The translations under genes were made by a program, and so were the position numbers. The notes below the pieces were generated by a model. That model was given only the letters and a program-made list of their open reading frames with translations, did no database searches and was not told where the DNA came from. A stretch of 25,515 nucleotides of DNA from a virus, in IMG/VR virus record IMGVR_UViG_3300027708_000273, positions 1 to 25,515 of that record. One strand, written 5' to 3'. Positions 2,708 to 25,515 of this stretch are shown here, piece by piece (within the stretch, counting starts at the first letter, position 1; every line of letters starts with the position of its first letter).

Positions 2708-3306
2708 TAGATTTTTCCTATAATCATATATCTATTATACAGTGGTAATTCTAACTCTCCTGCCCACAATACATTAATATGACTTTGTTCTTTAAAAGTT
2801 TCTAGACTATCGGCAGTGCGTACATGTTCTGGAATTTGATAATTGTTACTTTGTAATACAAGAATCTGATCTGTATTTCGTTTACTCAACCAAGTTTCAT
2901 ACTGCTCTTGGGTTATGTGTTCACAGCTGGTATTGATTACGACATCGACAAAAGATATCAGATTGCACATGTCGCCAGTACTAGCTGTAAATCTACCCGC
3001 TATTTCTTCACCTTTGTTCATCATAGTAGCGATAGGTTCACACGTAGGATCAATGTCGAGACTGTAAATGCGTTTAATTGGAATGTTACTTTGAAATAGC
3101 ATACTAGCCAATACACCTACCCAGCCTCCATGTATTTCGATACTAACCGGATCATCCTTAACTGAGAATTGCATACTCAATGCTTCGATAAGCCATTCTT
3201 TACTTTTTAGCTGACCCGACCAAAAGGCATCCATAGTCCGCAAGGGATCTGGGCTTTGTCGGATGGCCTGCATCCAATAATGTAAGTGTTCGGTATCTAT
3301 TTGCAT
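2707..3306 (-). CDS. Class I SAM-dependent methyltransferase-like protein
   Basis: 199 residues. A Rossmann-type order is visible: SIEIHGGWVGVLAS near residue 55 as a degenerate motif I, YSLDIDP about 25 residues later as the acidic strand-2 end that would bind the ribose of AdoMet, then TGDMCN and VDVVINTSCEHI as motifs III and IV. The canonical ExGxGxG loop is altered to EIHGGWVG, so activity is not assured. The ATG overlaps the stop of the upstream radical SAM gene by 10 bp, and its own stop overlaps the next start (TAATG). Sitting inside the radical SAM/ligase operon, it probably contributes methylation, or an AdoMet-fold scaffold role, to the same product. Target unknown. Confidence 0.65.
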   Translation of the reverse strand: MQIDTEHLHYWMQAIRQSPDPLRTMDAFWSGQLKSKEWLIEALSMQFSVKDDPVSIEIHGGWVGVLASMLFQSNIPIKRIYSLDIDPTCEPIATMMNKGEEIAGRFTASTGDMCNLISFVDVVINTSCEHITQEQYETWLSKRNTDQILVLQSNNYQIPEHVRTADSLETFKEQSHINVLWAGELELPLYNRYMIIGKI

Positions 3307-4265
3307 TTTGGTATTTTACTATCAGCTGAACTAACACACGTAGGTGTTACACATAACTTAGGAGTGGAAAATAAATTAAATTTTTCTAAATCTCCAAGTG
3401 GCGCTTCGTGGCAGCTATACGCCCTTTTAATTTCATTGCCTCTTATTATAACACTTTGATACCCACTATTACAATACCAATTGGTGAATTTATTAAATCC
3501 AAATGCGTTAAATCTTTCAGCTTGATCAAATAGGTATTCAGTATTAGTTGAATCATATAATGCTATTTGATAAATGTCTTCTCCGTCTGCTCGTTGCGGG
3601 AATCCATTTTGCATTATTTCAATCATTTCATTAGTATAACCATCTACTATCTTACTAGCAGTAGGATCACTTTGCGGCTTGAGTGTTACATTAATTCCTC
3701 TCTTATGCAATCTCTCGCAACGGTTTAGTGTTTCAAAAAACTGCTCGGGAACCATAACTTGATTAACTGTTAGCAAAACTCCTTCAGTTATCAATCGTAA
3801 ACACTTATCGCCAAACTCTTGTTCTTTAGCAAACTCTGAGTGATAACTAGCCGTTATACTTCTACGTTGTAAAAGTGCAGTATGGTTACACCAAGTTTCC
3901 CACCACTTGATTCCTGGACTAAGATTTGTAGTCATATGTATACTTTGATACTGACTTTCTTTTTCATCTAAATGTTTGGTTAACTCTAGTAGGTGTTTGT
4001 AGGCAGTAGGCTCACCTCCGCTGAACGACCAATGGAACTGGTTAAACCCATTGGCTCGAGCTTGGCGTTTAATCTCGTCTACAGTAGATTTATATACTTC
4101 AAGCGATTGGTGATCCGGCATGTCGGATCTAGCATATGGCCAACAGTAACTACACTTGTAATTACAGAATCTACCTAATATCCAGCTAACATTAAACAAT
4201 GGACGATCCAGCATTGTCCGTTGTCCAAACTTGACAATTTCACTCCACGGTATTGACTGGTTCAA
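3297..4265 (-). CDS. Radical SAM protein, paralogue of the gene at 627-1643 (TTG start)
   Basis: 322 residues. CxxxCxxC at C34, C38, C41 (CNYKCSYCWP) and WSFSGGEPTAY define a radical SAM enzyme. CNYxCxYCWP followed by a conserved PD about ten residues later is shared with the 627-1643 protein, and SYHSEF with the 4240-5334 protein, so the three are paralogues. The C-terminus carries WYCNSG, then CHE, CVTPTC and a final Cys, suggesting an auxiliary cluster domain. The start is TTG at 4265, inside the upstream gene (26 bp overlap). It is supported by GAGG seven bases upstream (4273-4276 on the plus strand). The next possible start is an ATG at 4214, which still leaves the cluster motif intact. 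Substrate unknown. Confidence 0.88.
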   Translation of the reverse strand: MNQSIPWSEIVKFGQRTMLDRPLFNVSWILGRFCNYKCSYCWPYARSDMPDHQSLEVYKSTVDEIKRQARANGFNQFHWSFSGGEPTAYKHLLELTKHLDEKESQYQSIHMTTNLSPGIKWWETWCNHTALLQRRSITASYHSEFAKEQEFGDKCLRLITEGVLLTVNQVMVPEQFFETLNRCERLHKRGINVTLKPQSDPTASKIVDGYTNEMIEIMQNGFPQRADGEDIYQIALYDSTNTEYLFDQAERFNAFGFNKFTNWYCNSGYQSVIIRGNEIKRAYSCHEAPLGDLEKFNLFSTPKLCVTPTCVSSADSKIPKCK

Positions 4266-5334
4266 GATAATGCCTCATTATGTTGTTATAATCATAATAT
4301 TTTTTTGCTTTAGGAGCACATAATCCACATCGACATCTGTGTTTCCCACATACTATTGCTGGAGGTTGTTTTTGTTTAATGTTATCAATAATCAATTGAG
4401 CATCTGACAAATACCCTATAGGAGCAATTTTCCCATCAAAGTTCATCATACAGTCTTTATTAACAAATACCTCTTTAGTAACTTGTTTAACAAATACGAA
4501 AAAATAATGTACGCTACAATGCCACCCTTTAAAATTATTATTAGGTATATAAGGCTGACTAGAACTATAATCAGCATTTACATGCATCTCGTTACCTCCG
4601 CAACAACTACGACCGTTGCTATCTAAATTTATAATTGATATAATTTTTTTATGTAACGGTATCTTTGTAGTAATGCCATACAACTCGTCAAACCATTTTA
4701 TTTGATCTTTTTTATAATAATCGAAATCAAAATCATGTTCAAGTTGTCTTGGCAAATGGGGTATATTATTATCCTTACACCATTCAATCATGCTGATACT
4801 ATTGTTCCAATGTTTAGGATGCATCATTATTGCACATTTAAAATGCTTGCCTTTTTGCTTTAAATCTAACAAATTTTGTTTAAATAAATCTTGTTGTTCT
4901 ATAGTAGTTTCTGAATGATAACTTACTGTCCAATAATCAATCTTATCTACAATTCTATCCCAAATTTTTTCTTTAACTATTGCGTTTGTAATAGTTTGGA
5001 TACTTAAAGACCATTTATCTTTGTATTGTTCGTGCTGTATTTTGATGTAATCCAAAATTTCTACAATATTTGGATGAAATAAACTTTCGCCACCAAACAC
5101 ATTTAACCCTGCTCTACGTTGTGAAGGTAACTTGTATGCCATATAAGCATCAACATATTCTAGTAAAAAATCAACCGTTTTTAAACATTCCTCCAAAGTT
5201 GGATGAGGGATAGCATTGTTATGATAATTTTTACTGCAATACGAGCAGTCCAAATTACACTTCAAAGTAGTTTCCCATGTTATTTGGAAAACGGGCGCAT
5301 CATCTAGTGTAGGTTCAATAACAGAGTAATTCAT
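4240..5334 (-). CDS. Radical SAM protein with Cys-rich C-terminus, first gene of the operon
   Basis: 364 residues. CxxxCxxC at C26, C30, C33 (CNLDCSYC) and LNVFGGESLF (a GGE variant) mark the radical SAM domain. WTVSYHSE near residue 137 matches the paralogues downstream. The C-terminal third has RSCCGG, GWHCS, KDCMM and then a dense CGKHRCRCGLCAP segment, enough cysteines for one or two auxiliary Fe-S clusters (SPASM-like). It is the promoter-proximal gene of the operon reading left. The upstream sequence has a near-match to the late promoter motif (CGTAAATA, 5341-5348) and no clear Shine-Dalgarno. The substrate is unknown; peptide or protein modification is possible by family analogy only. 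Confidence 0.88.
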   Translation of the reverse strand: MNYSVIEPTLDDAPVFQITWETTLKCNLDCSYCSKNYHNNAIPHPTLEECLKTVDFLLEYVDAYMAYKLPSQRRAGLNVFGGESLFHPNIVEILDYIKIQHEQYKDKWSLSIQTITNAIVKEKIWDRIVDKIDYWTVSYHSETTIEQQDLFKQNLLDLKQKGKHFKCAIMMHPKHWNNSISMIEWCKDNNIPHLPRQLEHDFDFDYYKKDQIKWFDELYGITTKIPLHKKIISIINLDSNGRSCCGGNEMHVNADYSSSQPYIPNNNFKGWHCSVHYFFVFVKQVTKEVFVNKDCMMNFDGKIAPIGYLSDAQLIIDNIKQKQPPAIVCGKHRCRCGLCAPKAKKYYDYNNIMRHYLEPVNTVE

Positions 5335-5340
5335 ATGGTA

Positions 5341-5348
5341 TATTTACG
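5341..5348 (-). promoter_or_regulatory. Possible late promoter, one mismatch to NATAAATA
   Basis: On the minus strand this reads CGTAAATA, one mismatch from the NATAAATA late motif of T4-like phages. It lies six bases before the ATG of the radical SAM operon. There is no sigma70-like -35 box at the right distance. It is weaker than the other late promoters here and is offered because the operon has no better candidate. Confidence 0.35.
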
Positions 5349-5375
5349 CTTATAAATTAAGTTAGCCAAAAAAAC

Positions 5376-5404
5376 TTGACGTTGGAGTCAAATGAATATA
5401 TAAT
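5376..5404 (+). promoter_or_regulatory. Sigma70-type promoter of the tRNA-like gene
   Basis: TTGACG at 5376-5381, a 17 bp spacer and a perfect TATAAT at 5399-5404. The first base of the tRNA-like RNA (G, 5411) is seven bases past the -10 box, so transcription should begin at or next to the mature 5' end. It may also serve the plus-strand genes that follow. Host RNA polymerase is the expected reader. Confidence 0.85.
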
Positions 5405-5410
5405 ACAAAT

Positions 5411-5521
5411 GTGGACGTGAGCGGAATTTGGTATACCTCCTCCTAGTAGCGCAAGCGAACGGAGGGCAAGGGTCTAGCTCTTAGAGCGACTTTGCAGGTT
5501 CGAATCCTGCCGTCTACACCA
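5411..5521 (+). tRNA. tRNA-like gene with encoded CCA, long variable arm and oversized anticodon region
   Basis: Seven-base acceptor stem 5411-5417 with 5511-5517 (GTGGACG/CGTCTAC), including a G3.U70 wobble. Discriminator A at 5518 and CCA at 5519-5521. T arm 5494-5510 is perfect (GCAGG, TTCGAAT loop, CCTGC). The D region holds the GG of positions 18-19 at 5430-5431. The middle is abnormal: CCTCC (5439-5443) pairs with GGAGG (5461-5465) as a five-pair anticodon stem, but the loop is 17 bases instead of 7. A long variable arm follows (GTC..GAC plus GCTC-TTA-GAGC, 5472-5490). Total 111 nt, well above the usual 85-95 for class II tRNAs. Long variable arm plus A73 would fit tRNA-Leu; G3.U70 plus A73 is the alanine identity pattern also used by tmRNA. 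No anticodon can be assigned. It could be a degenerate tRNA, an intron-bearing tRNA or a tRNA-like regulatory RNA. Confidence 0.7.
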
Positions 5522-5552
5522 ACTTAACACACAGGCACAGAAAGGCTTTGAA

Positions 5553-5873
5553 ATGAAAACAGCAATTTTAATTTTGGCAACATTGATTTCGTTAACTGCA
5601 CATGCAGAAATGGAAAAATCAGCAACAGATTTTTATTCAATTAAATCATTAAGAAATACAAAGAGTGTTGTGGATATTATCCGAACTGATAACGTTCCAG
5701 CTACCTGTGAAGCAGAAAGTAAACGTCGAGGTTATGGCGGATTTCGCGGAGCATCCATGGAAGCCTGTAGTTTTTCAGACGAGAATAAATGCACCATTGT
5801 TACAGGTTATGTAACCAATAATGACATTCTTGGTCATGAATTGCACCATTGTTTTGCAGGACACTTTCACTAA
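5553..5873 (+). CDS. Secreted small HExxH protein, putative zinc metallopeptidase
   Basis: 106 residues. The N-terminus is a Sec signal peptide (MKTAILILATLISLTAHA, cleavage after AHA expected), so the mature product should be periplasmic. The C-terminus ends in GHELHHCFAGHFH, an HExxH zinc motif followed by G and H in a metzincin-like order with one extra residue. The mature part is only about 88 residues, small for a full protease, so it may be a minimal peptidase or a zinc-binding inhibitor. Residues after the signal (SIKSLRNTKSVVDII, then a Cys) resemble the start of the mature protein at 11941-12483. AAAGG lies ten bases before the ATG. The stop overlaps the next start (TAATG). Confidence 0.75.
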   Translation: MKTAILILATLISLTAHAEMEKSATDFYSIKSLRNTKSVVDIIRTDNVPATCEAESKRRGYGGFRGASMEACSFSDENKCTIVTGYVTNNDILGHELHHCFAGHFH

Positions 5874-6391
5874 TGGCTAATTTGTCAAAAAGTCCAGAAC
5901 GACATACTTTTCAAAAAAATGCTTACATCAAAAGGTGTAAGGAAGAAGGGAAAGATCCCGATCCTTCTATCGTCGAAATGTATAATAGCTTTACCAACAA
6001 ACCCGAATACGAAAATCGGCCAGAATATGATTTAGAATACGAGTTGCGCACTACTGATTGGATTTTGGAAAAGGTTCGTACTAGTGATTCCTATGCCCAA
6101 AATTTGTATGCGGCAATGTGTAATATGCGCTGGCAACATAAAGATGCGGGGCCTAGATCTAAATGGTCTTGCTCGTGGAGGCATAGTGGAGGCATAATTG
6201 CAGACATGCAGAAAAAAGGTGACTATATCGATTGGTACTGTAGCGGAATTGGCAACAGTGATGATGGCTATGGTCTGGATTACCGTCCAGCCAGTGGCTA
6301 TGTTCCAGAAGGTAATGTAACTGAGGAAATTGAAAAAGATTTAGAGAGAATGGGGTGGACTCCAGTTCCTTGGGATGACGACGAAAATTAA
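5873..6391 (+). CDS. Conserved-looking hypothetical phage protein
   Basis: 172 residues from the ATG at 5873 (MANLSKSPERH). An upstream TTG at 5849 is possible, but the ATG overlapping the previous stop is the natural coupled start. Hydrophilic, no signal or membrane segment. The centre has a Trp/Cys-rich patch (CNMRWQHKD, KWSCSWRHSGG, DWYCSG) that could bind metal or fold around a disulfide, followed by an acidic tail ending WDDDEN. I do not recognise a family. Its coupling to the secreted HExxH gene suggests a shared task, but nothing in the sequence names it. Confidence 0.75.
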   Translation: MANLSKSPERHTFQKNAYIKRCKEEGKDPDPSIVEMYNSFTNKPEYENRPEYDLEYELRTTDWILEKVRTSDSYAQNLYAAMCNMRWQHKDAGPRSKWSCSWRHSGGIIADMQKKGDYIDWYCSGIGNSDDGYGLDYRPASGYVPEGNVTEEIEKDLERMGWTPVPWDDDEN

Positions 6392-6392
6392 G

Positions 6393-6400
6393 AATAAATA
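6393..6400 (+). promoter_or_regulatory. T4-type late promoter (AATAAATA) for AbrB/IF-1
   Basis: AATAAATA fits the NATAAATA late motif described for marine T4-like phages. It fills most of the 13 bp gap before the ATG at 6405, with exactly four bases (TTTC) between octamer and ATG. The same four-base spacing recurs at 16404, 16448 and 24271. Confidence 0.6.
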
Positions 6401-6404
6401 TTTC

Positions 6405-6575
6405 ATGGATAAATTAATATTTGATGTAGAGGAAATCTTTGAGGATATCCCTGGAGATCCGGATAATGTTATTATGAAAATTCCCCCTGCTGTTCTTGAA
6501 ATGACAGGATGGAATGAAGGTGATACTTTGGATGTAACCGTAGAGGATGGTGCAATCAGCATTAAAAAGGTATAA
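6405..6575 (+). CDS. AbrB/MazE-like (SpoVT-AbrB fold) small protein
   Basis: 56 residues from the ATG at 6405. The stretch IMKIPPAVLEMTGWNEGD followed by LDVTVEDGAISIKKV has the pattern of a swapped-hairpin AbrB domain: strand, IP.xVLexxGWxEGD, then DG.I.I. This domain usually binds DNA as a dimer, as in MazE antitoxins and AbrB regulators. No MazF-like toxin is adjacent. Instead the stop overlaps the IF-1 start (TAATG). A longer form from an ATG at 6375 would start inside the previous gene; the start at 6405 is preferred because a late promoter octamer lies four bases before it. It may regulate transcription, or act as an orphan antitoxin against a host toxin. Confidence 0.8.
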   Translation: MDKLIFDVEEIFEDIPGDPDNVIMKIPPAVLEMTGWNEGDTLDVTVEDGAISIKKV

Positions 6576-6793
6576 TGGCAAAAGACGATATTATTGAATT
6601 AGTAGGTTCTGTTGAAGAAGTATTGCCAGGCAATATGTTTAGAGTTAAAGTAGAAAACATGCCGACTCCGTTGCTATGCTATATGGGTGGTAAGTTAAAA
6701 CAAAATAAGATTCGCATTATCCTAGGTGATAATGTACGATTAGAAGTTAGTCCATATGATCTTACAAAAGGTCGTGTAACTTATAGGTTGTAA
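6575..6793 (+). CDS. infA: Translation initiation factor IF-1
   Basis: 72 residues, exactly the length of bacterial IF-1, and alignable end to end. MAKDDIIELVGSVEEVLPG matches the MAKEDNIEMQGTVLETLPN start, MFRVKVEN the OB-fold strand, GGKLKQNKIRIILGD the SGKMRKNYIRILTGD segment, and SPYDLTKGRVTYR the TPYDLSKGRIVFR end. IF-1 binds the ribosomal A site on the 30S subunit during initiation. The loop before GGKL (TPLLCYM) differs from the host-type HVVTAHIS, so A-site contacts may be altered. The start overlaps the AbrB stop, so the two are translated together, and the pair appears to be under a late promoter. It could favour phage mRNAs, including leaderless ones, late in infection. Confidence 0.95.
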   Translation: MAKDDIIELVGSVEEVLPGNMFRVKVENMPTPLLCYMGGKLKQNKIRIILGDNVRLEVSPYDLTKGRVTYRL

Positions 6794-6795
6794 CT

Positions 6796-7458
6796 ATGAA
6801 TATCATTCTTGAACGTGTTTACAAAGTTTGTAAGGAAGTTCGAGAATCTAGTCCTGAACCTACAACATTTAAAAAATTAGTAGCCAAGACTAGAAAAATA
6901 TTTAAAGTACATGACTTTGATATTGATATTAAAACCCGAAAAGATCGAGATTTAGATCCCGACATGTGGTATGTTATGGCATACTATGACAGCGAAGGTG
7001 ATTTTAATTTAGAAACTGCTATCGAAATCGTTGTTTACCATAATTTAAATGGCACTGAAGAGTTTAAAGAACGCCAAATAACTGCATTTTTAACTGAAAT
7101 ATTTGATGCTACTGTACACGAATTCAGACATCAATATCAAAGTATGCGTAGAGATCACAACCAATTTGGCGTACATTACGATAGTCTACATGAAGAATAT
7201 CTTGCAGATCGAGATGAACTAGATGCTTATGCGTTTAGTATTAGTCTTGAATTGTTGCGGATTATGGATGCCCAAAGAGCCAAAAGAAATCTAAGTAGAA
7301 TTAGTGTAATGAGCAGAATGCGTACGGGTCCAAATTACTCTAGTCCAACCTTACATGCATATATGAAAAATTTTGGGCTAAATCATCTTACCAGAAAGTT
7401 AGCCAAAAAAATATACTATCATTTAGAAACGGTTGACAAGCGTTGGATTTTCATGTAA
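6796..7458 (+). CDS. Putative HExxH zinc metallopeptidase (cytoplasmic)
   Basis: 220 residues, no signal peptide. TVHEFRHQYQSMRR holds the HExxH motif at H108, E109, H112. About 20 residues on, HEEYLADRDELDAYAFS supplies acidic residues that could be the third zinc ligand. The same order (HExxH, QY/QYRS, RDExxAxxF) occurs in the protein at 17065-17793, so they are paralogues. Phage proteins of this kind may process virion or host proteins, but no substrate is indicated. The ATG is three bases after the IF-1 stop, so it probably belongs to the same transcript. A consensus sigma70 promoter for the next gene overlaps its last codons. Confidence 0.7.
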   Translation: MNIILERVYKVCKEVRESSPEPTTFKKLVAKTRKIFKVHDFDIDIKTRKDRDLDPDMWYVMAYYDSEGDFNLETAIEIVVYHNLNGTEEFKERQITAFLTEIFDATVHEFRHQYQSMRRDHNQFGVHYDSLHEEYLADRDELDAYAFSISLELLRIMDAQRAKRNLSRISVMSRMRTGPNYSSPTLHAYMKNFGLNHLTRKLAKKIYYHLETVDKRWIFM

Positions 7459-7461
7459 AAT
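7433..7461 (+). promoter_or_regulatory. Sigma70-type promoter for the 7491-11631 gene run
   Basis: TTGACA at 7433-7438, a 17 bp spacer and TAAAAT at 7456-7461. It lies in the last codons of the HExxH gene and would start transcripts about 7468, 23 bases before the ATG at 7491. It is followed by ACAAAG, similar to the sequences after the -10 boxes at 5399 and 11638. Confidence 0.8.
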
Positions 7462-7490
7462 ACAAAGTATATTAACTCATGTAGCGAGCA

Positions 7491-8183
7491 ATGTCCAAAA
7501 AAGAATTTCCTACCCAGCAAGTTTTAGAACTAGCCTGTGCGGCACAGCGACTATACGGTGCGTACATCAAAGATCCTGAAGCGGTTTATGCAGAAGACGG
7601 TGTGTACATGTATACCAAACAAACCAATAAGATGCTTATGCTCTGCACACTTGAGCCGGCGATTTGGACAGCTGACCCAAAAGACGCTCCGATGCCCTTG
7701 AAGGTATTTCCCGAAGATGTTGCGTTTGCAGATGAAATTAAAAATTATTACAAACGACTCTTGTTTGCGGCCATTGAAGGTGAAAATGATTTTCAAACTA
7801 CTATTAACAATATTCTTACTAGTGACATGGTTAAACAAAATCAATTTGGATATGTTGCCTGTTTGCCGCATGTCTATGTTAAAGACAAGATACAGAACAA
7901 AGTTAAGAAGGCAGCACGGCAAGTTGATGAAGGATATCTGGCAGAAATTGGTAGCACAGTCAAAGACTTAGATGCAGAAATCATAGCATCAATTAAGTCA
8001 AAAAACTTTGAAGGTTACAATATTGATGCTATAATTGACAATAAGATGGTATCATGGTTGAACAAAACTGCATTGGTATTAGGCCCATGTGTTGTTGTAA
8101 AAGCCAAAGTTAAAGATCACAACAAACACTGGAAACATCAAAATGATGTGACTAGACTTAATTTTGTAAAGGCGGCACAATGA
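7491..8183 (+). CDS. Hypothetical protein, first gene of a sigma70-driven run
   Basis: 230 residues. No signal peptide or membrane segment. The middle is Lys-rich (VKDKIQNKVKKAARQ). The C-terminal stretch VVVKAKVKDHNKHW followed by DVTRLNFVKAA has the shape of a short beta-rich nucleic-acid-associated tail (KxKxH, then TxLNxVK) seen in several phage and viral DNA-metabolism proteins; this resemblance is from memory and weak. It heads a run of overlapping genes (ATGA overlaps with the next) behind a strong host-type promoter, so early or middle expression is likely. Function unknown. Confidence 0.75.
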   Translation: MSKKEFPTQQVLELACAAQRLYGAYIKDPEAVYAEDGVYMYTKQTNKMLMLCTLEPAIWTADPKDAPMPLKVFPEDVAFADEIKNYYKRLLFAAIEGENDFQTTINNILTSDMVKQNQFGYVACLPHVYVKDKIQNKVKKAARQVDEGYLAEIGSTVKDLDAEIIASIKSKNFEGYNIDAIIDNKMVSWLNKTALVLGPCVVVKAKVKDHNKHWKHQNDVTRLNFVKAAQ

Positions 8184-8371
8184 TTAAACTAAACACACAC
8201 GAATTGGAAAAGATTAAAAAAATCTGCGAAGAAGTTGGCACAGAATACTTTACCTTAGAACAGAATAATAAGTCTGGCATCGGTAGCATTCTTACAATGA
8301 CCTACGACACCTTTGTAGCAGATTATCCTGCTAAAATGACTATTGAAGTATCTGGTGTGGAGACTTGGTAA
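8180..8371 (+). CDS. Small hypothetical protein
   Basis: 63 residues. Starts with the ATG overlapping the previous TGA (ATGA) and ends TAATG into the next gene, so it is clearly translated as part of the run. The N-terminal half is a charged helix (LEKIKKICEEVGTEYFTLEQ), the rest strand-rich (ILTMTYDTF, KMTIEVSGVETW). No recognised family. Confidence 0.72.
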   Translation: MIKLNTHELEKIKKICEEVGTEYFTLEQNNKSGIGSILTMTYDTFVADYPAKMTIEVSGVETW

Positions 8372-8625
8372 TGAGTAAAGCTAAACATAAATCGTATCAA
8401 TGGATTGATGCAGAAACTGCGGATCGTATTACCAGTCTTAACCTAAAAGACTATCGTGCGTATCTTAAAAAAGAATTGAAACAATGGAAAAAGAATCCAA
8501 AGACAGATAGTAATCCAGATGGATACTGGTTGCACCCTGAAGATGTAGCAGGCAATATCCGTAGCATTGAAGCATTGGATTTGATTATTAGTCACTTTCC
8601 ACAAACAGAAGATGAAATAAAATGA
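8371..8625 (+). CDS. Small hypothetical protein, Lys/Trp-rich
   Basis: 84 residues from the ATG at 8371, which overlaps the preceding TAA by one base. An in-frame TTG at 8365 is less likely. Basic N-terminal half with YLKKELKQWKKNPK, then a conserved-looking GYWLHPEDVAGNIRSIEALD segment. Soluble and helical by composition. No function recognised. Overlaps the next gene by ATGA. Confidence 0.72.
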   Translation: MSKAKHKSYQWIDAETADRITSLNLKDYRAYLKKELKQWKKNPKTDSNPDGYWLHPEDVAGNIRSIEALDLIISHFPQTEDEIK

Positions 8626-9116
8626 AACAAGAACTAGACGAATACCTATGTAAAACTTATCCAAAGATGATGGTCAACCGCAACAAGAACATGCAGGAAA
8701 CTTGTATGTGCTGGGGTTTTGAATGTGGAGATGGATGGTTCCAGATTCTAAATCAACTCATGGGCAATATTCAACATCACATTGATTGGAAAGAGAAACA
8801 GCGTAATTGGGCAATTACTTTTAATAGTACAGCCTCGCCAGAAGACATGCGACCGGTACCGGATGCTATCCCACAAGTAACATTGGATCAAGTTAAAGAA
8901 AAGTTTGGTACACTACGTTTCTATTACACAGGTGGAGACGACCATATCAGGGGAATGGTTACTATGGCAGAATCAATGTCGGGCGTAACTTGTGAAACTT
9001 GTGGCAATCCTGGCACAAGTACTAGCGGTGGATGGATTAAAACAGTATGTAAGGAACATGGTGGTGTTGATTATGACACACCAGAAGATGAGTATCTAGC
9101 AAAGGAAACAGAATGA
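8622..9116 (+). CDS. Hypothetical protein with C-terminal zinc-ribbon-like motif
   Basis: 164 residues. The centre has QVKEKFGTLRFYYTGGDD followed by GMVTMAESMS, then CETCGNPG and WIKTVCKEHGG. The CxxC plus CxxH pairs about 17 residues apart look like a treble-clef or zinc ribbon. The FGTLRFYY...W..T.C..H pattern is one I associate with a widespread uncharacterised family of phage and bacterial proteins. The N-terminal half has MCWGFECGDGWFQILNQL. It sits in the overlapping run (ATGA on both sides). Function unknown. Confidence 0.78.
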   Translation: MKQELDEYLCKTYPKMMVNRNKNMQETCMCWGFECGDGWFQILNQLMGNIQHHIDWKEKQRNWAITFNSTASPEDMRPVPDAIPQVTLDQVKEKFGTLRFYYTGGDDHIRGMVTMAESMSGVTCETCGNPGTSTSGGWIKTVCKEHGGVDYDTPEDEYLAKETE

Positions 9117-9721
9117 TTACTATTAAAGAATGGATGGAATTGGTTGACTACAAAATCACTGAAGGCAGTGATTATGGTTGGCAATGCTACGGCCCTAACA
9201 GTTACACATTGAGTAGCTGGAACGGTGTCCATGGTAAGGGCGGTTATAGTATGGACATTACTTTTAGTAACAAAAGTCAAAAAGTCTATGAAGTTAGTGT
9301 ATGTGATTATACTAACGACCGTGCGTACCGAATGATTAATCCAAAGTTTCAAAAGAAACATGAAAAAGAGGCACTGTCTCGTAATGTTAATTTAAACGAA
9401 GCATGGGATGATGTTGACTATGTTGAGTTGGATGTACTAGATGATTTCATCCAAAAAGCACTGGCTATTAAAGCAGGTGAACCTTATGACACACGGGTGC
9501 AGATTGAGGTTGACTTTTCGGATGAAGAACTGTTACAATACATGAAACTAGCACACGACCGTGATATGACCTTTAACGAGTTAGTTGAAGAAGCATTGCG
9601 CTATGCTATTGATGAATACGAAGCCGGTCGTCTTACCAAAGAAGGCGCCCAAAAATGGGTAATTGAAAATTCTAAAGCCTGGCCATTTGATAAGGGCGAG
9701 GAAGAATACAGCGAGATATAA
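9113..9721 (+). CDS. Hypothetical protein with ribbon-helix-helix-like segment
   Basis: 202 residues. The N-terminal 100 residues are strand-rich and aromatic (YGWQCYGPNSYTLSSW). Residues about 128-165 read QIEVDFSDEELLQYMKLAH then DMTFNELVEEALRYAI, a strand followed by two helices in ribbon-helix-helix order. That arrangement would bind DNA as a dimer if the match is real. The tail is acidic. Overlaps the zinc-ribbon gene by 4 bp and ends one base before the metallophosphoesterase start. A DNA-binding role is inference only. Confidence 0.75.
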   Translation: MITIKEWMELVDYKITEGSDYGWQCYGPNSYTLSSWNGVHGKGGYSMDITFSNKSQKVYEVSVCDYTNDRAYRMINPKFQKKHEKEALSRNVNLNEAWDDVDYVELDVLDDFIQKALAIKAGEPYDTRVQIEVDFSDEELLQYMKLAHDRDMTFNELVEEALRYAIDEYEAGRLTKEGAQKWVIENSKAWPFDKGEEEYSEI

Positions 9722-9722
9722 A

Positions 9723-10568
9723 ATGAAAATCAAGTTAGTCAGCGATCTCCATTTAGAGTTTGCCGATATTAACATTCAGAATGATCAGGACTATGATGTA
9801 CTGATTCTTGGTGGTGACATTTGTGTTGCACAAGATCTGCACGACCATCCAGAAATGGACTATGGCATGTACAGTAATATTAATCTTGCTGATCTAGGTC
9901 GTAGGCAAACTACAGCTTTACGTTTTAGAGATTTCTTCAAGCGTTGCAGTTTTCAGTTTCCGCACGTTGTCTATGTTATGGGCAATCACGAATTTTATCA
10001 CGGTAAGTTTTACGGTGCTATTGATTACATGCGTGACGAGTGCGCTAAGTTTCCAAATGTTTATCTATTAGAGCAGGATACTAAGATCATCGACGATGTT
10101 GTGTTTGTGGGTGGTACGCTTTGGACTGATATGAACAGACGTGATCCACTTACAATGCATGCCATTGAAGGTATGATGAACGACTTCCGTATTGTACGCA
10201 ATGATCAAAGAAATTTTGCTCGTATGAGTGCATTAGATGTTGCCGTTCGTCATGATAGGACTCTTGCCTACATCAAACTGATTGTTAAAGAACATAAGGA
10301 CAAGAAGTGTGTAGTAGTTGGTCATCATGCTCCTAGCTATCAAAGCATTCATGAGCAGTACAAACACGACACATTGATGAATGGCGGGTATGCTAGTGAT
10401 CTAAGTGAATTCATTTTGGATCATCCGCAAATTAAATTGTGGACACATGGTCATATGCATCAGCCATTTGACTATATGATTGGGGAAACTCGTATTGTCT
10501 GTAACCCGCGTGGTTATGAAGGTCATGAAGATAGTGGCTGGAATCAACAAATTGTACTAGAAGTATGA
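9723..10568 (+). CDS. Calcineurin-like metallophosphoesterase
   Basis: 281 residues from the ATG at 9723 (MKIKLVSDLHLEF). An upstream in-frame ATG at 9663 would add 20 residues inside the previous gene and is less likely. The ordered metal motifs are all present: SDLHLEF (DxH), LGGDI (GGD), MGNHEFYHG (GNHE), VVGHHAPS (GHH) and WTHGHMHQPF (GHxH). The family uses two metal ions to hydrolyse phosphomono- or diesters, ranging from nucleic acids to cyclic nucleotides. Substrate not apparent. It lies in the host-promoter-driven run, which favours a role in host takeover, nucleotide metabolism or defence evasion. The start of the next gene overlaps by ATGA. Confidence 0.92.
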   Translation: MKIKLVSDLHLEFADINIQNDQDYDVLILGGDICVAQDLHDHPEMDYGMYSNINLADLGRRQTTALRFRDFFKRCSFQFPHVVYVMGNHEFYHGKFYGAIDYMRDECAKFPNVYLLEQDTKIIDDVVFVGGTLWTDMNRRDPLTMHAIEGMMNDFRIVRNDQRNFARMSALDVAVRHDRTLAYIKLIVKEHKDKKCVVVGHHAPSYQSIHEQYKHDTLMNGGYASDLSEFILDHPQIKLWTHGHMHQPFDYMIGETRIVCNPRGYEGHEDSGWNQQIVLEV

Positions 10569-11032
10569 AAGAAGACATAGTTTTTTACATAAAGAAAGGA
10601 AGAAGGTATGTACCTCACAGTACATACTCTTCTGAATTTTGCGATAGCTTTCCAAAAGGCACTCACCTAGTGCAGAGTTATCCCGGCGGGAGTATGCGCC
10701 GTTTCAATATTGATCCTGCGTATGCTCCTATGATTGCCGCTGGTCGTGTTGCCGAAGATGCTATCAGTGAGGCATTGATGAGGGCCAATGAGATTCGTCC
10801 GCAGACTACGCCTATTACTCCGGCGGCTCAAAAAGCCTGGATGAAGTTGAAGAAAGAATTGGGTAACGATGGATATTTAACTAGAGGCAGTACTAGAGAA
10901 GCATCAGAGGCCGCAGTCAAAGCCATGACGGAAGAAGCAGAGAAATTACTAAGTAACCCAGCAGTTCGAAAAGCATACGATAGATTTTTGCTAATTTGCG
11001 AACTAACAAAAGAACATAATACGGAGAAATAA
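10565..11032 (+). CDS. Hypothetical protein with NPAxxxAWxxF-type tail
   Basis: 155 residues. The N-terminus is compact and aromatic (FYIKKGRRYVPHSTYSSEF), the rest helical and Ala-rich. The C-terminal NPAVRKAYDRFLLICELT resembles NPAAKMAWEKFQTIASL near the end of the protein at 11200-11631, so the two share a C-terminal helix and may be divergent duplicates. No catalytic motif seen. Start overlaps the phosphoesterase stop by ATGA. Confidence 0.75.
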   Translation: MKEDIVFYIKKGRRYVPHSTYSSEFCDSFPKGTHLVQSYPGGSMRRFNIDPAYAPMIAAGRVAEDAISEALMRANEIRPQTTPITPAAQKAWMKLKKELGNDGYLTRGSTREASEAAVKAMTEEAEKLLSNPAVRKAYDRFLLICELTKEHNTEK

Positions 11033-17064: not shown

Positions 17065-17793
17065 ATGGCCCGCGAAGCCTTTAACTGGTCCTTATTGGAT
17101 CGAAATATGCTGTACTCAATGCTCTACCAACTCAGAACTGAATTAGTAGATAAAAGACTTTCTTTTACTCAAATTACTAGACTGATAAGCAAACACATCA
17201 AAAGCCATCTTCCAATAAAAGTTATTAGCACACGTTTCAAACCGGTAAAAAATGGAGAACTTTGGATTGGAGGTTGTTATTACGCAGACTATGACATGCA
17301 AGGTAAACAAAGATTTATCGAAATACAGTTAGCATATCCTGTGAATTCAAACACTATGAAGATAAGCGGTTATCGTTGGGAGAAGATTTGCAGAGTATTT
17401 GCAGATACAATCCTACACGAAATCATTCATTGTCGACAATATCGTTCTAGAAATTTTAAATCTATTCCCGGTTACGAAAGTAAAGCATATTATGCCAGAG
17501 AAAGAAGAGAACAAGAGTATTATGGGCACCGAGATGAAATGGGCGCACACTCATTTAATCTTGCCTGTGCGCTTCTTGATAAATTTGGATGGGACCCAAC
17601 TGCTATTAAAGATTATTTGGACAGTCCTGTTCCAAAACGATTACGTCCAAACTGTTGGGGACGATTTATGAAAGCGTTCGCCTACAATCACAACCATTCA
17701 AAAGTTATCCAAATGAAGCATAAAATAATGAATCAATTAGAATATGCGGCAATAGGTAAGCCATTTAAGACTCCGGACCACTTGACATACTGA
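17065..17793 (+). CDS. Putative HExxH zinc metallopeptidase, paralogue of 6796-7458
   Basis: 242 residues. ADTILHEIIHCRQYRSR has HExxH at H118, E119, H122, followed by REQEYYGHRDEMGAHSFNLA. This repeats the order in the 6796-7458 protein (HEFRH, QYQS, then EEYLADRDELDAYAFS). The last block offers an acidic third zinc ligand. The C-terminus is basic (KRLRPNCWGRFMKAF). No signal peptide, so it acts in the cytoplasm or in the virion. Late promoter and a strong AGGAG site precede it. The late timing would suit processing of structural proteins, but this is inference. Confidence 0.72.
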   Translation: MAREAFNWSLLDRNMLYSMLYQLRTELVDKRLSFTQITRLISKHIKSHLPIKVISTRFKPVKNGELWIGGCYYADYDMQGKQRFIEIQLAYPVNSNTMKISGYRWEKICRVFADTILHEIIHCRQYRSRNFKSIPGYESKAYYARERREQEYYGHRDEMGAHSFNLACALLDKFGWDPTAIKDYLDSPVPKRLRPNCWGRFMKAFAYNHNHSKVIQMKHKIMNQLEYAAIGKPFKTPDHLTY

Positions 17794-19530: not shown

Positions 19531-20367
19531 ATGAGAAGTCATTATTGGACATGCAGTAAATTTGCAGACTGGATTCGCGGTACCACTAAGCTCAAAGCTG
19601 GTACTAGCGAGGAATGGCAAGAATGGGAAAAACGAGCCAAAGCTGATTATCCCGTTCGTTGGTGGTTAGCTGAAGAAGGCCTAGACTACATTCAAAAATT
19701 TGTTTATTACATTCCGGATCAATTAGATGAAGTACGCTATTATATTAATAACCGTTGGATTTCTCGTAGTCACTCTCTTACCGCACATGCTCGAGACATC
19801 AAGCCGGGCAATTGGTGTGACGTCGGCAATCGCTTTTTACCTTGTCTTTTTAACGAGCTTGTGGATTTTGTTGAGGTAGAACAAGCGTGGCATCATTGCT
19901 GTTGGAGTGATGAAGCTAAGACCAAGTTTGCTGTACCTTGGTGGCGCAAGGGTTGGTTCCGTTGGCGCACTTGGCGCTGTCCAGAAGCCGGACTAGAATA
20001 CCTACGTTGGGCCAGTAACTTGACTAATGAAGAGTTTTTGGAAGAAGGCGAAAAGCATCTAGCCGAACCAACCTATCAAGCCAAAGCCGCTAAAGAAATT
20101 ATCGAGCTTTACACATGGTGGACTGAGACCTATCGGAATCGTCCGGACCCCTATGATGCAAGTGGCTGGACTGCTTACTGCGAAGCAAGTCGTGCGGCCA
20201 ACGGTGGTAGTCTTTGGGGAAGTCTAAACGCTGACAAAAGTCCTGAACTTCGTAAGATGAGCGACGAGTCTCATACGGCATTGCGTAAAATAGAAGAGGC
20301 CTATGCCAAGGAAGAAGAACAAATGATGATTCGTCTTATTAAGATTCGTGAAAGTTTGTGGACATAA
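19531..20367 (+). CDS. Trp-rich hypothetical phage protein
   Basis: 278 residues with an unusual number of Trp (for example PVRWWLAEEG, VPWWRKGWFRWRTWRC). No signal or clear membrane segment; the Trp are spaced in helices and more likely form a core or binding surface. The last 60 residues are a charged helix (LRKIEEAYAKEEEQMMIRLI). AAGGA lies five bases before the ATG. No family recognised. It overlaps the next gene by 10 bp. It follows ligase and MazG-like, so nucleic-acid or nucleotide work is possible but unproven. Confidence 0.78.
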   Translation: MRSHYWTCSKFADWIRGTTKLKAGTSEEWQEWEKRAKADYPVRWWLAEEGLDYIQKFVYYIPDQLDEVRYYINNRWISRSHSLTAHARDIKPGNWCDVGNRFLPCLFNELVDFVEVEQAWHHCCWSDEAKTKFAVPWWRKGWFRWRTWRCPEAGLEYLRWASNLTNEEFLEEGEKHLAEPTYQAKAAKEIIELYTWWTETYRNRPDPYDASGWTAYCEASRAANGGSLWGSLNADKSPELRKMSDESHTALRKIEEAYAKEEEQMMIRLIKIRESLWT

Positions 20368-20613: not shown

Positions 20614-21978
20614 ATGAATCAAAAACAAAAAATATTTGAAATAAAAAAGATAACCGATACTGTTAGTCCAACATTTTGTCTAGCCAAATGGCACCATACA
20701 ACCATTTATTTGCAAACAGGAGAAACTCATAGTTGCTATCATCCTGCACCACATAAAATTCCATTACTTGAACTAGCAGTTAATCCCACAGCATTACACA
20801 ATACTAACCAAAAGCGTGATGAACGTTTTAGTATGTTACAAGGCGAAAAGCCTAGTGGATGTAATTACTGTTGGAATATCGAAGCGTTAGGTGATGATTA
20901 TATTAGTGATCGTAAAGAACGTAATGCAAGTATCTATACACCAGAAAGATTTGCAGCCATTAAGGCAGCGCCGTTGGCTAATGTTAATCCACAGTACATA
21001 GAAATTAGCTTTGGTAACGAGTGCAATTTTAAGTGTGGCTATTGTCATCCCAAAGCGTCTAGTGCCTATTATAAAGAAATTAAAACACACGGTCGGTATA
21101 AAGTTAAGAATCATGGCTTTAGTGTTGACAATTTAGAAATATATGAAGAAGAAACTAACCCATATGTTGAAGCTTGGTGGGCTTGGTGGCCCGAAGTTCG
21201 TAAGACCTTAACTATTTTACGAATTACTGGTGGTGAACCGTTACTACAACAATCAACATGGCGATTGCTAGACGATCTAGAAAAGAATCCATTACCTAAT
21301 TTAGAATTAAACATCAATAGCAATTTTGGTGTTAAACCTATTTTAATTGAACGGCTTGCTGAAAAAGTGAACAATCTTGTTACTCAAGGAAAAATTAAAG
21401 ATTTTAAAATCTTTACTAGCATGGATACTTGGGGTAAGCCGGCAGAGTATATTCGTACTGGATTAAATTTAGATGTATGGGAAAAGAATTTTGACACCTA
21501 CTTGACTAAAACATCATTACCGATTACATTCATGGTAACATTTAATATATTAACTGTAACAAATTTTCAAAACTTACTTGAAAAATTACTAGAGTGGCGT
21601 ATACAATATAATGGTACAGATCAGAATAAATGGCAACGTGTACGATTTGATACACCATACTTAAAAGAACCTTTACAGTATGATATGAATATATTACCTA
21701 AAGAAGAATTTATGATTTATATGCAAAGTCATTTACAATTTATTAAGAACAACGTTGACGATCAAGATCGAACTAAATTTAGTGAACTCGAATATGAAAA
21801 ATTCCGCAGAGTCGTCGATTATATGGGCACTACAACTTATTCAGATGAAAAATTAGTAGAAGGTCGTAAAGATTTCTATACATGGTTCACTGAACATGAT
21901 CGAAGACGAGGCACAGATTTTGAAGAAACGTTTCCTGCTCTAGTAAATTTTTATAAAAGATGTAAACATGAAGTCTAA
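20614..21978 (+). CDS. Twitch-domain radical SAM protein
   Basis: 454 residues. The radical SAM motif is C137, C141, C144 (CNFKCGYC), with ITGGEPLL as GGEP and INSNFG and FTSMDTWG as later barrel strands. Four more cysteines precede the barrel (FCLAKW, SCYHP, CNYCW at about 83-86), a twitch/SPASM-like cluster site placed at the N-terminus rather than the usual C-terminus. Its neighbour downstream has the same layout, so they are a tandem pair. This architecture is known in marine phages, with no proven substrate. Upstream is TATAATTA, a one-mismatch late-like octamer, again four bases from the ATG. Confidence 0.9.
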   Translation: MNQKQKIFEIKKITDTVSPTFCLAKWHHTTIYLQTGETHSCYHPAPHKIPLLELAVNPTALHNTNQKRDERFSMLQGEKPSGCNYCWNIEALGDDYISDRKERNASIYTPERFAAIKAAPLANVNPQYIEISFGNECNFKCGYCHPKASSAYYKEIKTHGRYKVKNHGFSVDNLEIYEEETNPYVEAWWAWWPEVRKTLTILRITGGEPLLQQSTWRLLDDLEKNPLPNLELNINSNFGVKPILIERLAEKVNNLVTQGKIKDFKIFTSMDTWGKPAEYIRTGLNLDVWEKNFDTYLTKTSLPITFMVTFNILTVTNFQNLLEKLLEWRIQYNGTDQNKWQRVRFDTPYLKEPLQYDMNILPKEEFMIYMQSHLQFIKNNVDDQDRTKFSELEYEKFRRVVDYMGTTTYSDEKLVEGRKDFYTWFTEHDRRRGTDFEETFPALVNFYKRCKHEV

Positions 21979-23149
21979 AACATTTTGTGTACTGCCGTGG
22001 ATTCATCTAAACATTAGTCCCGTTGGTGAAGTATTCCCGTGTGCAATTGGAAATTATGCGCATCCTTTAGCCAATGTACAAAATAATAAAATTACTGAAA
22101 TTTGGAATAATGATCGATTTAAGAACCTAAGACTTAAGATGTTAAAGGGAGAACGATGCAACGAATGTTCAGCGTGTAATCATGCAGAAGATAATGGTGT
22201 TCCGACCGCAAGACAAGGTATGAATGACAGGTTTCAAGAATTTATTAAAATTGCAGATACTACTAATCCAGATGGATCTTTAAACGCAATGGATCTTAAA
22301 TATTTAGATATTCGTTGGAGCAATATTTGCAATTTCAAGTGTCGAACATGTAATGGAACATATTCATCTAGTTGGGCGTCTGAGGACATAAGCAAAGGAC
22401 ATAACAAAAAAGTTTTTATCTTTGCTGGTGGTGAAAATAATGACGATCTATATGATCAATTATTGCCCTATATTTCTACAGTTAAAGAAATTTATTTTGC
22501 TGGTGGCGAGCCTCTGTTAATGGACAAACATTATTCTATGCTAGAGCATTTAATTAGTATAGGTAATAATACTGTAAAAATTCAATATAACAGCAATCTA
22601 AGTAATTTATACTACAAAGACAAATCAGTAATAGAACTATGGAGACATTTTAAAAATGTTAAGGTATATGCAAGTATTGATAGTTGGGGAGATCGTGCCG
22701 AATATATAAGAGAAGGTACTGTATGGACAGACATAGAAGAAAATATACGGCTAATTCATTCTCAAGCACCTAATGTTGATTTAGATATTGGAATTGTAAT
22801 ATCTGCTTTAAACATATATACCTTGCCAGAATTTCTTGATTATATGTATTCTAATAATTTATTTGATTTTAATAAATCTAGACCAAGTTTTTATAATATA
22901 ATTGATCCAAACTATTATAGTGTAAGCATCCTTAACAACGAGATGAAGAACAAGATAATTAAAAAATTATCAGATGTCTCGTTTAATAACTTTGTAAATC
23001 AAAGAATTAAAGAAGTTATAACGCATATTGAGTACTCAGTGTATAGACCTGAAATAAAAGATAGATTTTTAAATAGGACTGCACATTTTGATAAACTTAG
23101 GAATAAGGATTTTAAAAAAACGTTTCCTGAATTAGCAAATATCTGTTAA
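21968..23149 (+). CDS. Twitch-domain radical SAM protein, tandem partner
   Basis: 393 residues. FCVLPWIHLNISPVGEVFPC and GERCNECSAC (C7, C25, C64, C67, C70) form an N-terminal SPASM-like cluster site. The radical SAM motif is C121, C125, C128 (CNFKCRTC), then YFAGGEPLL. ASIDSWGDRAEYIREG aligns with TSMDTWGKPAEYIRTG of its partner, and the ends match too (FKKTFPELANIC vs FEETFPALVNFY), so the pair arose by duplication. The start overlaps its partner's stop by 11 bp. Its 3' end overlaps the convergent gene by 18 bp. Substrate unknown; action on the same target as its partner is likely. Confidence 0.9.
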   Translation: MKSKTFCVLPWIHLNISPVGEVFPCAIGNYAHPLANVQNNKITEIWNNDRFKNLRLKMLKGERCNECSACNHAEDNGVPTARQGMNDRFQEFIKIADTTNPDGSLNAMDLKYLDIRWSNICNFKCRTCNGTYSSSWASEDISKGHNKKVFIFAGGENNDDLYDQLLPYISTVKEIYFAGGEPLLMDKHYSMLEHLISIGNNTVKIQYNSNLSNLYYKDKSVIELWRHFKNVKVYASIDSWGDRAEYIREGTVWTDIEENIRLIHSQAPNVDLDIGIVISALNIYTLPEFLDYMYSNNLFDFNKSRPSFYNIIDPNYYSVSILNNEMKNKIIKKLSDVSFNNFVNQRIKEVITHIEYSVYRPEIKDRFLNRTAHFDKLRNKDFKKTFPELANIC

Positions 23150-24271
23150 CATTAATTCAAATTTAGATAATTGTTCGTTTGTATTTTTTCTTTCTAAAAA
23201 TACATTAAAGTTATATTGTAAAACTTCTTCGTACTGATATCTCCAAGCAATTTGATCTTTGCGCGAATAAGATAGCAAAGTGTCAACTGTTTGTTTTATA
23301 CTATCTATTAGCTTCATATATCTAATCAAATCATTAGGCTCGTCATCAAAGTCTAAATTAAAATATTGCTCATAAGTTTTAAATCCTAGGAGACTAAGTT
23401 TTTTATTAATTCCTTGATGGCCATATATTACCATTGGTTGAAAATTAACAATGGGTTTTAGAATCTTTTCTGAAAAGAATAATGTAGTGTTATGTACATT
23501 ATCTGCAAGTGTTTCATTTACAATACTAAAGATAGTCTTAGCATGTAATAAAGTTAACGAATTGAAAGGTTCATTAATATGGAATTTATCTTCGTCTGCA
23601 ATTAATGGAAGACTTTGTTTGAACTTTTCTACATCTTCAATTGATAAATTTGCAACTTTCAGTTCTTGCATATTAAAATTATGATTCTCAATCCTATCTT
23701 GACTTATGATACTACGTTCACGCAATGTTGAATTGAATAATACTAAATGAGCAAACAGTCTGTGACTTCTATTACGCCTAGATAAACTAAGAATAATATT
23801 TTGATAATTTTCATTACATAATTGTTTTGATTGTTCAATGGTTCGTACATAATGAGTTTTCCAATCGTTTTCATTGTCTAAAATAAAAATTGGCACAATA
23901 TTAATATCTGCAGAATTATCTACAAAATTACCGGTAAAATAAAAAATCTTCTTTGGATTTATATTATGTTTTATACAACTTTGATAAAGAGGTTCTGCTA
24001 TGGGTCTTTCAATTGGACTAAGCCCCTCAAATGTTGCATCAAATATAAGAATGACTGGTTCAGTCTGCAAACGTTTTAGTATATCGTTACCTAAATATGC
24101 CAATAGATCCACACCGCGAAACGACAGCATTGGGTAGGATAATAATACATGTATGAATAATACATTTGAAAAATTATTTTCAAATCTTTTTAATGCACCT
24201 GTTAGTATACTAGGCCCAGGAGGGCTCCAAAAATATGGATTTGATTCTATTTCTACTGATAGTTGTTTCAT
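23132..24271 (-). CDS. Glycosyltransferase-like phage protein
   Basis: 379 residues. The N-terminus is a Rossmann-like region (FIHVLLSYPML, PVILIFDATFEG). SLSRRNRSHRLFAHLVLF follows in the middle. Near the end, LFFSEKILKPIVNFQPMVIY, GHQGINKKLSLLGFKTYEQY and FNLDFDDEPND have the SEKxxKPI...PxxxxG..G....LxxLGFKT pattern. I associate this pattern with GT10/exostosin-like glycosyltransferases common in marine phages and bacterial surface loci. It may decorate a virion protein or host surface sugar, or use a product of the radical SAM enzymes. It has its own late promoter (CATAAATA) and ends 18 bp inside the convergent radical SAM gene. Confidence 0.62.
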   Translation of the reverse strand: MKQLSVEIESNPYFWSPPGPSILTGALKRFENNFSNVLFIHVLLSYPMLSFRGVDLLAYLGNDILKRLQTEPVILIFDATFEGLSPIERPIAEPLYQSCIKHNINPKKIFYFTGNFVDNSADINIVPIFILDNENDWKTHYVRTIEQSKQLCNENYQNIILSLSRRNRSHRLFAHLVLFNSTLRERSIISQDRIENHNFNMQELKVANLSIEDVEKFKQSLPLIADEDKFHINEPFNSLTLLHAKTIFSIVNETLADNVHNTTLFFSEKILKPIVNFQPMVIYGHQGINKKLSLLGFKTYEQYFNLDFDDEPNDLIRYMKLIDSIKQTVDTLLSYSRKDQIAWRYQYEEVLQYNFNVFLERKNTNEQLSKFELMLTDIC

Positions 24272-24341: not shown

Positions 24342-25004
24342 ATGGATAAGCCGCATCTTGTTTTAAATTGGACATTTGATATCCCTAACAATGAATTATA
24401 TTGTGAGATCAGCGACGACTTAAAGTATATTGCGTATGAAGGCGGAACTTTACCGTTTACCAAAATACATAAAGGTGTAACATCTACGTTGTCAGTTAAC
24501 GAATGGCTTTCACAAGAGCGGCATTGGATTAGCAAACATTACGGAGAACTAGTTGGTTATTTTCAACCGGACCCTAACCGAGTTATAACTCATCCAATAT
24601 ATAATCGCCCGGATCATTGTCCCAACGGCCTCGGTCCTGACGGAAGATATCTTGATCATCTACAACGTATGCAAATTGTAATGGAAGGTGAAGATATGCG
24701 TATAATCTGGGGAGGAGGCAAAGATCCGTTATTCCTCACACCTGACCAAGGTAAGACAATCTACAAGCGTGTGCCTACTAGAGATGTAAACTATCCCGAA
24801 GTGGAAACTAATCCAGATTCGTGGTGGAGTGAATGGCCGCAGGCATGTGCGCAACAGCCGCGTACAGCAGGTCCAAGATTGAGTAGTCTCGAAGAACTAG
24901 AAAAGGCAGGAGCACCTGAAGGCATCATTGAAAAATGTCAAAACGGCGAGTGGCCTGCACCACTACATCCAGAGTTACAGCAATGGTATATATACCCTAA
25001 ATAA
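24342..25004 (+). CDS. Hypothetical late protein, Pro/Trp-rich
   Basis: 220 residues. LVLNWTFDIPNNELYCEIS suggests a beta-rich start; the middle has NRPDHCPNGLGPDGRYLDHL, and the end is PEWPAPLHPELQQWYIYPK-like in composition, rich in Pro, Trp and Glu. No signal, TM segment or catalytic motif. A perfect late promoter and good ribosome-binding site precede it, so a virion or assembly protein is a reasonable guess. It ends 8 bp inside the convergent partial gene. Confidence 0.75.
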   Translation: MDKPHLVLNWTFDIPNNELYCEISDDLKYIAYEGGTLPFTKIHKGVTSTLSVNEWLSQERHWISKHYGELVGYFQPDPNRVITHPIYNRPDHCPNGLGPDGRYLDHLQRMQIVMEGEDMRIIWGGGKDPLFLTPDQGKTIYKRVPTRDVNYPEVETNPDSWWSEWPQACAQQPRTAGPRLSSLEELEKAGAPEGIIEKCQNGEWPAPLHPELQQWYIYPK

Positions 25005-25515
25005 AATTATGTTCTTTAAGATAGGGTAAAATAAATTGATCGCAAATTATTTTTTGATTATCTGAGCCATGATGGCCGCCACCAAAAGCACCGGCCGGTA
25101 ATGGTTTTAAATTGTGTTGTATTACAAACTCTTCAATATAACTGGGTATTATATTTAAATCTTTAAAAATATCAGAATACCCAATATTTTTGATTATTTT
25201 TTGAAGATCAACACACCAACTAAAGAATACTATAGGCACATTTTTTTGTCCTGCTAAGAATGCCATAGTTGATATAGTGTGCATTATTTTATAATATAAA
25301 TTATAATCGGACAACAGTACATGATTAATAATAAAATCATCAATGTGATGAAAGAATTGATTTGGTTGGTCACCTAATAATCTTGAAAGATTATTAGAAT
25401 TTTCATGAGCATTAAATGTATAATATACTTGTCCATTATAATGATGGCTACCAATTAGATATTCTTTAGTTTCAGCTCCAATTGGCCAATCCATTTTATA
25501 ACGATGTCGCAATGC
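24997..25515 (-). CDS. C-terminal part of an unknown protein, perhaps SGNH-hydrolase-like
   Basis: The frame is open to the right edge; the first possible start codon seen is a TTG at 25512, and the true start probably lies outside. About 172 residues are visible. Helical and aromatic, with PIVFFSWCVDL as a buried strand. AFGGGHHGSDNQKIICDQF and ILPYLKEH close the protein, resembling the DxxH-containing end of SGNH/GDSL esterases (a His just before a helix that ends with a YL motif). That resemblance is weak. Very AT-rich, like the neighbouring glycosyltransferase-like gene, which may suggest a shared surface-sugar role. Confidence 0.6.
   Translation of the reverse strand, partial: ALRHRYKMDWPIGAETKEYLIGSHHYNGQVYYTFNAHENSNNLSRLLGDQPNQFFHHIDDFIINHVLLSDYNLYYKIMHTISTMAFLAGQKNVPIVFFSWCVDLQKIIKNIGYSDIFKDLNIIPSYIEEFVIQHNLKPLPAGAFGGGHHGSDNQKIICDQFILPYLKEHNFI

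Follow-up and report, generated by a model that had tools for sequence, protein, structure and literature searches.

The window (i.e., the whole stretch of 25,515 nucleotides that was analysed) carries near its right end two genes, henceforth called A and B. An earlier note on this DNA had seen two radical SAM genes between positions 20614 and 23149, and open reading frames were found at exactly these positions, overlapping each other by 11 bases. Both proteins matched the NCBIfam model NF033640 (N_Twi_rSAM, “twitch domain-containing radical SAM protein”) far above its curated cut-off of 170 bits (A, 314.8 bits; B, 383.8 bits) and over nearly the whole profile (positions 1–398 and 1–397 of 398, respectively). 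Additionally, the Pfam SPASM model (PF13186) matched B at residues 7–71. The gene that follows B on the opposite strand, c20, had been called glycosyltransferase-like, and its AlphaFold model (pLDDT 89.4) bore this out: the matches listed for it were glycosyltransferases, the best being an alpha1,3-fucosyltransferase (Z 11), and c20 is, by predicted structure, a GT-B glycosyltransferase. The features of the locus are collected in Table 1.

Table 1 Genes and cluster-binding sites at the right end of the window (coordinates are those of the window)
Feature	Position	Strand	Description
Gene A	20614..21978	+	Radical SAM enzyme of 454 aa with N-terminal twitch domain; member of a conserved subfamily linked to glycosyltransferases
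Auxiliary [4Fe-4S] site of A	20677..20871	+	C22, C41 (CX13GX4C) and C83-X2-C86; invariant in 81 orthologues; profile aligns with the C-terminal twitch of BtrN
Radical SAM motif of A	21022..21045	+	C137-X3-C141-X2-C144, invariant; fold matches the barrels of MoaA, EpeE and BlsE (Z about 9)
Gene B	21968..23149	+	Radical SAM enzyme of 393 aa, likewise with N-terminal twitch domain; variable accessory gene
Auxiliary-cluster cysteines of B	21986..22177	+	C7, C25, C67 and C70 form the constant set; C64 is not constant
Radical SAM motif of B	22328..22351	+	C121-X3-C125-X2-C128; invariant cysteines
c20	23132..24271	-	Divergent GT-B-fold glycosyltransferase family found throughout the cassettes; 3' end overlaps that of B by 18 bp, tail to tail
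220-aa gene without assigned function	24342..25004	+	Same place behind c20 in L039 and L043; 82% identical at L039:14676-15332 and L043:9277-9933
SGNH-hydrolase-like frame	24997..25515	-	Cut by the window end; recognised by eye from the translation

In both proteins, the cysteines of the auxiliary cluster precede the radical SAM barrel. In A, C22 and C41 are spaced as C22-X18-C41 with a twitch-type glycine four residues ahead of C41, and all seven cluster and motif cysteines are invariant across the 81 orthologues. An eighth cysteine near the C-terminus, Cys450, was likewise invariant in these orthologues and has no counterpart among the constant cysteines of B. When a joint profile of A and B was searched against the PDB, its N-terminal positions 8–84 aligned with the C-terminal twitch domain of BtrN, a twitch radical SAM dehydrogenase of butirosin biosynthesis (E about 1e-4). 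The domain lies at the C-terminus in BtrN and at the N-terminus in A and B, and the domain order is therefore permuted. The substrate of BtrN is an amino-cyclitol, and there was no sign that A or B shares it. Only four constant cysteines were found before the motif in either protein, i.e., one cluster instead of the seven-cysteine SPASM pattern with two auxiliary clusters, and the auxiliary site is therefore of the twitch type and not a full SPASM. Of the earlier description of N-terminal, SPASM-like auxiliary sites, the location thus held and the SPASM assignment did not. The structure model of A (pLDDT 77) contained a TIM-barrel-like radical SAM core which, together with the CX3CX2C motif, places the protein in the radical SAM superfamily; structural matches at Z 8–9.7 were obtained to MoaA, EpeE, BlsE, SuiB, and anSME. 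This structural comparison singled out no sugar-acting relative and indicated no substrate, and a Foldseek search with the same model returned nothing under an E-value of 0.001. Profile matches and cysteine patterns show A and B to be radical SAM family proteins whose twitch cluster domain has been moved to the N-terminus.

A and B had been described as a tandem duplicated pair. They share 25% identity with each other, as opposed to 75% (A) and up to 65% (B) with their orthologues elsewhere, and a tree of 69 family members separated an A clade, which includes copies from Bdellovibrionota, from all B-type proteins on a branch of 2.25 (SH-aLRT 100). A recent tandem duplication was rejected on these grounds, and A and B are, as far as identities and tree topology tell, ancient paralogues. 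The motif (T/A)S(M/I)D(T/S)WG..AEYIR.G, which had been taken as a mark of the pair, is indeed common to A and B but not specific to them, since the shared SxD..WG..AEYIR positions fall mostly into columns that are invariant or nearly invariant family-wide. A head-to-tail fusion of two complete N-terminal-twitch radical SAM units, whose halves belong to different clades, was observed in an 817-aa protein of two further contigs (L067:11364-13817 and L070:8915-11368).

A relative of A was encoded in 214 of the 220 viral stretches that matched the search patterns, and the loci of the best 80 of these 214, in which the relative was 73–77% identical to A, were compared. Across these 80 loci, gene order was largely fixed: tail-fibre-like families 6 and 2 were followed by families 7, 5, 3, and 4, by two c0 genes and A, and then by a variable cassette and a conserved block on the opposite strand. 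The gene directly upstream of A was c0 in 77 of them. As these loci had been chosen by A, the figure may carry a sampling bias; a scan with c0 alone, performed without A, found A close behind c0 in 58 of the 59 contigs that had room for it, and in the remaining one (L148) an A-type protein of 40% identity stood behind c0, so that an A-type enzyme was present in all 59 usable contigs. The coupling was also kept where the identity of A had fallen to 58–65% (L158 and L353). A was the most conserved of the 20 protein families compared, with a mean pairwise identity of 82%, and rechecking this value in the contigs selected by c0 again gave 82%. Gene order thus shows A to be bound to c0, a putative GT-A-like glycosyltransferase, in the main phage group; in the window itself, c0 does not adjoin A.

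B behaved differently. Because most records are fragments, absences were counted solely in long records or in cassettes visible from end to end. B-type genes were present in seven of the 34 complete cassettes, and A stood without B in the other 27, which speaks against the pair acting together as previously supposed. In 14 of the 22 long records, including those of 115, 126, and 139 kb, A was the sole NF033640 protein. Judged by these counts, A is a core gene and B an accessory one. The relatives of B were gathered via the A loci; when viral contigs were scanned directly for B, no candidate was confirmed, because the patterns of B are not conserved. Among isolated phages, no match was found for A, c0, c20, or c5, and B had matches only at 21–24% identity, in Vibrio phages including KVP40.

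The cassettes behind A encode glycosyltransferases, sugar epimerases, UDP-sugar dehydrogenases, SGNH hydrolases (families 14, 19, 29, and 37 being frequent), 2OG oxygenases, and B12 as well as further radical SAM proteins in varying sets, with a NodU-type carbamoyltransferase in one record (G021); tail-fibre-like genes lie ahead of the block. The sugar-related setting at which the earlier note had hinted from one neighbouring gene is therefore far better supported than that reader could see. c0 has an invariant DxD motif and, by this motif and its context only, is classed as a putative GT-A-like glycosyltransferase; it had no database match, and PDB profile searches returned nothing for c0 or c20. 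The GT8-like families 5 and 3 (c5 and c3) kept a DxD motif and gave weak matches, exclusively to glycogenin.

At its left end the window carries a further operon with radical SAM genes, which brings the total to the six radical SAM frames that had been counted in these 25 kb, one of them (2-634) cut by the window end. The investment is heavy indeed, as had been remarked, but not unprecedented: a T4-like Tara genome (TARA_ERS488813_N000010) has 12 radical SAM genes, discussed there under Fe-S metabolism and not glycans (PMC5332604); the likeness to the window noted here is the abundance of radical SAM genes in a single T4-like phage. Five records of 52–111 kb (G053 (L262), G044, G047, G049, and G050) had 12–13 NF033640-type matches each, weak radical SAM matches counted. 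A near-identical contig (G031; L270:6847-8370) extends the window leftward with another NF033640-type and another radical SAM gene, and the left operon is therefore larger than the window shows. Within this operon, a 355-aa protein (1640-2707) without a family match has a TGGVDTAL motif resembling those of asparagine-synthetase-type ATP pyrophosphatases, and two proteins of the window with HExxH-like motifs (HEFRH at 6796-7458, HEIIH at 17065-17793) are possibly metallopeptidases.

The left operon had been thought to form one system with A and B, on the understanding that independent occurrence of the two loci in related genomes would speak against this, and such occurrence was found. For a marker gene of the left operon (3297-4265), relatives were found in no fewer than 594 viral stretches, and the best 80 of them were 74–100% identical. 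It exceeded 50% identity in one of the 22 A-bearing records (G021, 71%), and A exceeded 50% in one of 25 left-operon records (G047, 60%). Of the 20 large records (61–353 kb) with a homologue of the window gene at 19531-20367, nine had clearly A-type genes (at least 34% identity over most of their length or, where the contig ended, a fragment of 77%) and three had the left-operon gene at more than 50%. Both modules were present together in the window, G021, G047, and G065; a single system was nevertheless rejected by the co-occurrence counts, and the two modules are, on this distribution, compatible but independent.

An assembly chimera in the window is unlikely, since other contigs carry both modules and one of them is colinear: in G047 the left operon is followed, as in the window, by the middle genes, by the homologue of 19531-20367 and, after an SGNH-like gene, by A at 60% identity, behind which come an epimerase and a glycosyltransferase. 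In addition, L183 is 99.6% identical over window positions 1-10649. The order of A, B, c20, and the gene at 24342 recurs in L039 and L043, several related phages have genes of the A or B type in the slot that follows the 19531 homologue, and in one record of 353 kb (G056) A-type genes adjoin the conserved block that bounds the cassette of the main group. These arrangements are explained by a module that moves from slot to slot among large T4-like phages related to one another; gp23 was found in three of 15 main-group records, the other records being fragments. The G+C content was 33% in A, 30% in B, and 29% in c20, compared with 40% in the middle genes and 33% in the left operon; the low values of A, B, and c20 relative to the middle genes are as expected for exchanged modules.

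The reading that we prefer, with a probability of about 0.5, is that the locus forms half of a glycan-decoration module which large T4-like phages can exchange and in which a constant step performed by A is coupled to c0. Here, c0 would place a sugar, and A would catalyse one unvarying radical step, be it oxidation, epimerisation, or the formation of a bond, on the sugar, its nucleotide precursor, or the acceptor. The phage-specific variations would then come from the exchangeable genes, B and c20 among them. The acceptor would be a cytoplasmic protein or sugar, most likely a virion adhesin encoded next door, although this part is less certain; a cytoplasmic acceptor is favoured since neither membrane transporters nor membrane-bound transferases could be recognised in any cassette. 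What speaks against this reading is that the window has no c0 beside A, that the A-type genes of Bacteriovoracaceae contigs (see below) have no sugar genes around them, and that twitch and SPASM enzymes often have peptide substrates.

A possible though unlikely explanation is that the module alters the surface polysaccharide of the host (serotype conversion) and thereby shuts out competing phages, with A and B tailoring the sugars used. The same gene types and the same proposal are on record for the host recognition cluster of pelagimyophages, in which tail fibres, GT8 enzymes, a UDP-glucose 6-dehydrogenase, and radical SAM cassettes occur together and for which O-antigen modification was proposed (PMC7029224). 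Classical gtr-type conversion, however, involves a membrane flippase and a membrane glucosyltransferase, and nothing like these was encountered, as none of the 810 island frames had two or more predicted membrane spans (34 of 363 in the control of bacterial loci). The lack of membrane proteins favours a cytoplasmic acceptor, for instance a virion adhesin, over gtr-type conversion, while peripheral cytoplasmic transferases could still supply an exporter of the host.

It is quite unlikely that the direct target of A and B is a virion protein or a small peptide, modified in a RiPP-like manner, with the sugar genes travelling as unconnected passengers in a hypervariable region. Twitch and SPASM enzymes often have peptide substrates, as many characterised relatives do, and EpeE, SuiB, SkfB, and anSME are among the structural neighbours of A. 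A-type genes of 39–42% identity were also found in Bdellovibrionota-type MAG contigs (L161:9983-11368, L159, L160, L162, and L166); in these Bacteriovoracaceae contigs, the neighbours were rpl/obg, LolA-like, MacB-like, and PEP-synthase-like genes and not sugar genes, so that the chemistry of A need not be sugar-specific. Against this reading stands the near-absolute linkage of c0 and A in the main phage group; also, no precursor-like short frame lies between the overlapping genes A and B, and none was noticed beside them. Finally, it is extremely improbable, and in its strong form already refuted, that A and B are a tandem-duplicated pair and belong with the left operon to a single system, for although the two genes overlap, B-like paralogues lie directly behind A in several independent contexts (L158, L344, and L353), and both modules meet in the four records named above, A and B split anciently, A lacks B in most complete cassettes, and 21 of 22 A-bearing records lack the left-operon gene at more than 50% identity, just as 24 of 25 left-operon records lack an A of at least 60%.

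The features of the pelagimyophage cluster, which is also T4-like, recur here, namely tail-fibre genes beside GT8-type transferases (the glycogenin-like profile match being weak), a UDP-sugar dehydrogenase, and radical SAM cassettes of variable presence. It differs in that one radical SAM gene, A, is constant here while the rest is variable, and in that matches to A, c0, or c20 are absent from the isolate records. With respect to NF033640, the name of the model carries no reaction, and A forms within it a distinct and very conserved clade that is tied to c0 and reaches into Bdellovibrionota contigs. Nothing closer turned up in searches of the literature on this module in jumbo phages, on permuted twitch enzymes, and on phage-encoded virion glycosylation. 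The new findings are that A is constant, that it is coupled to c0, and that it is independent of both B and the left operon.

These observations suggest that the phages make their own sugar coat and alter it chemically. More speculatively, and rather improbably at present, A may found a radical SAM subfamily that acts on glycans or sugar nucleotides together with a dedicated phage glycosyltransferase, yielding in uncultured T4-like phages a radical-modified adhesin glycan that is varied by swapping the downstream enzymes. Among the environmental phages seen here, proteins of the NF033640 family occur commonly, and the family has no reaction assigned to it; the near-absolute pairing of A and c0 provides a specific, testable hypothesis of two enzymes, and the separation of a constant enzyme from its interchangeable companions points to where a common substrate should be sought. 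It also touches the question of whether chemically unusual glycans are produced by phages themselves.
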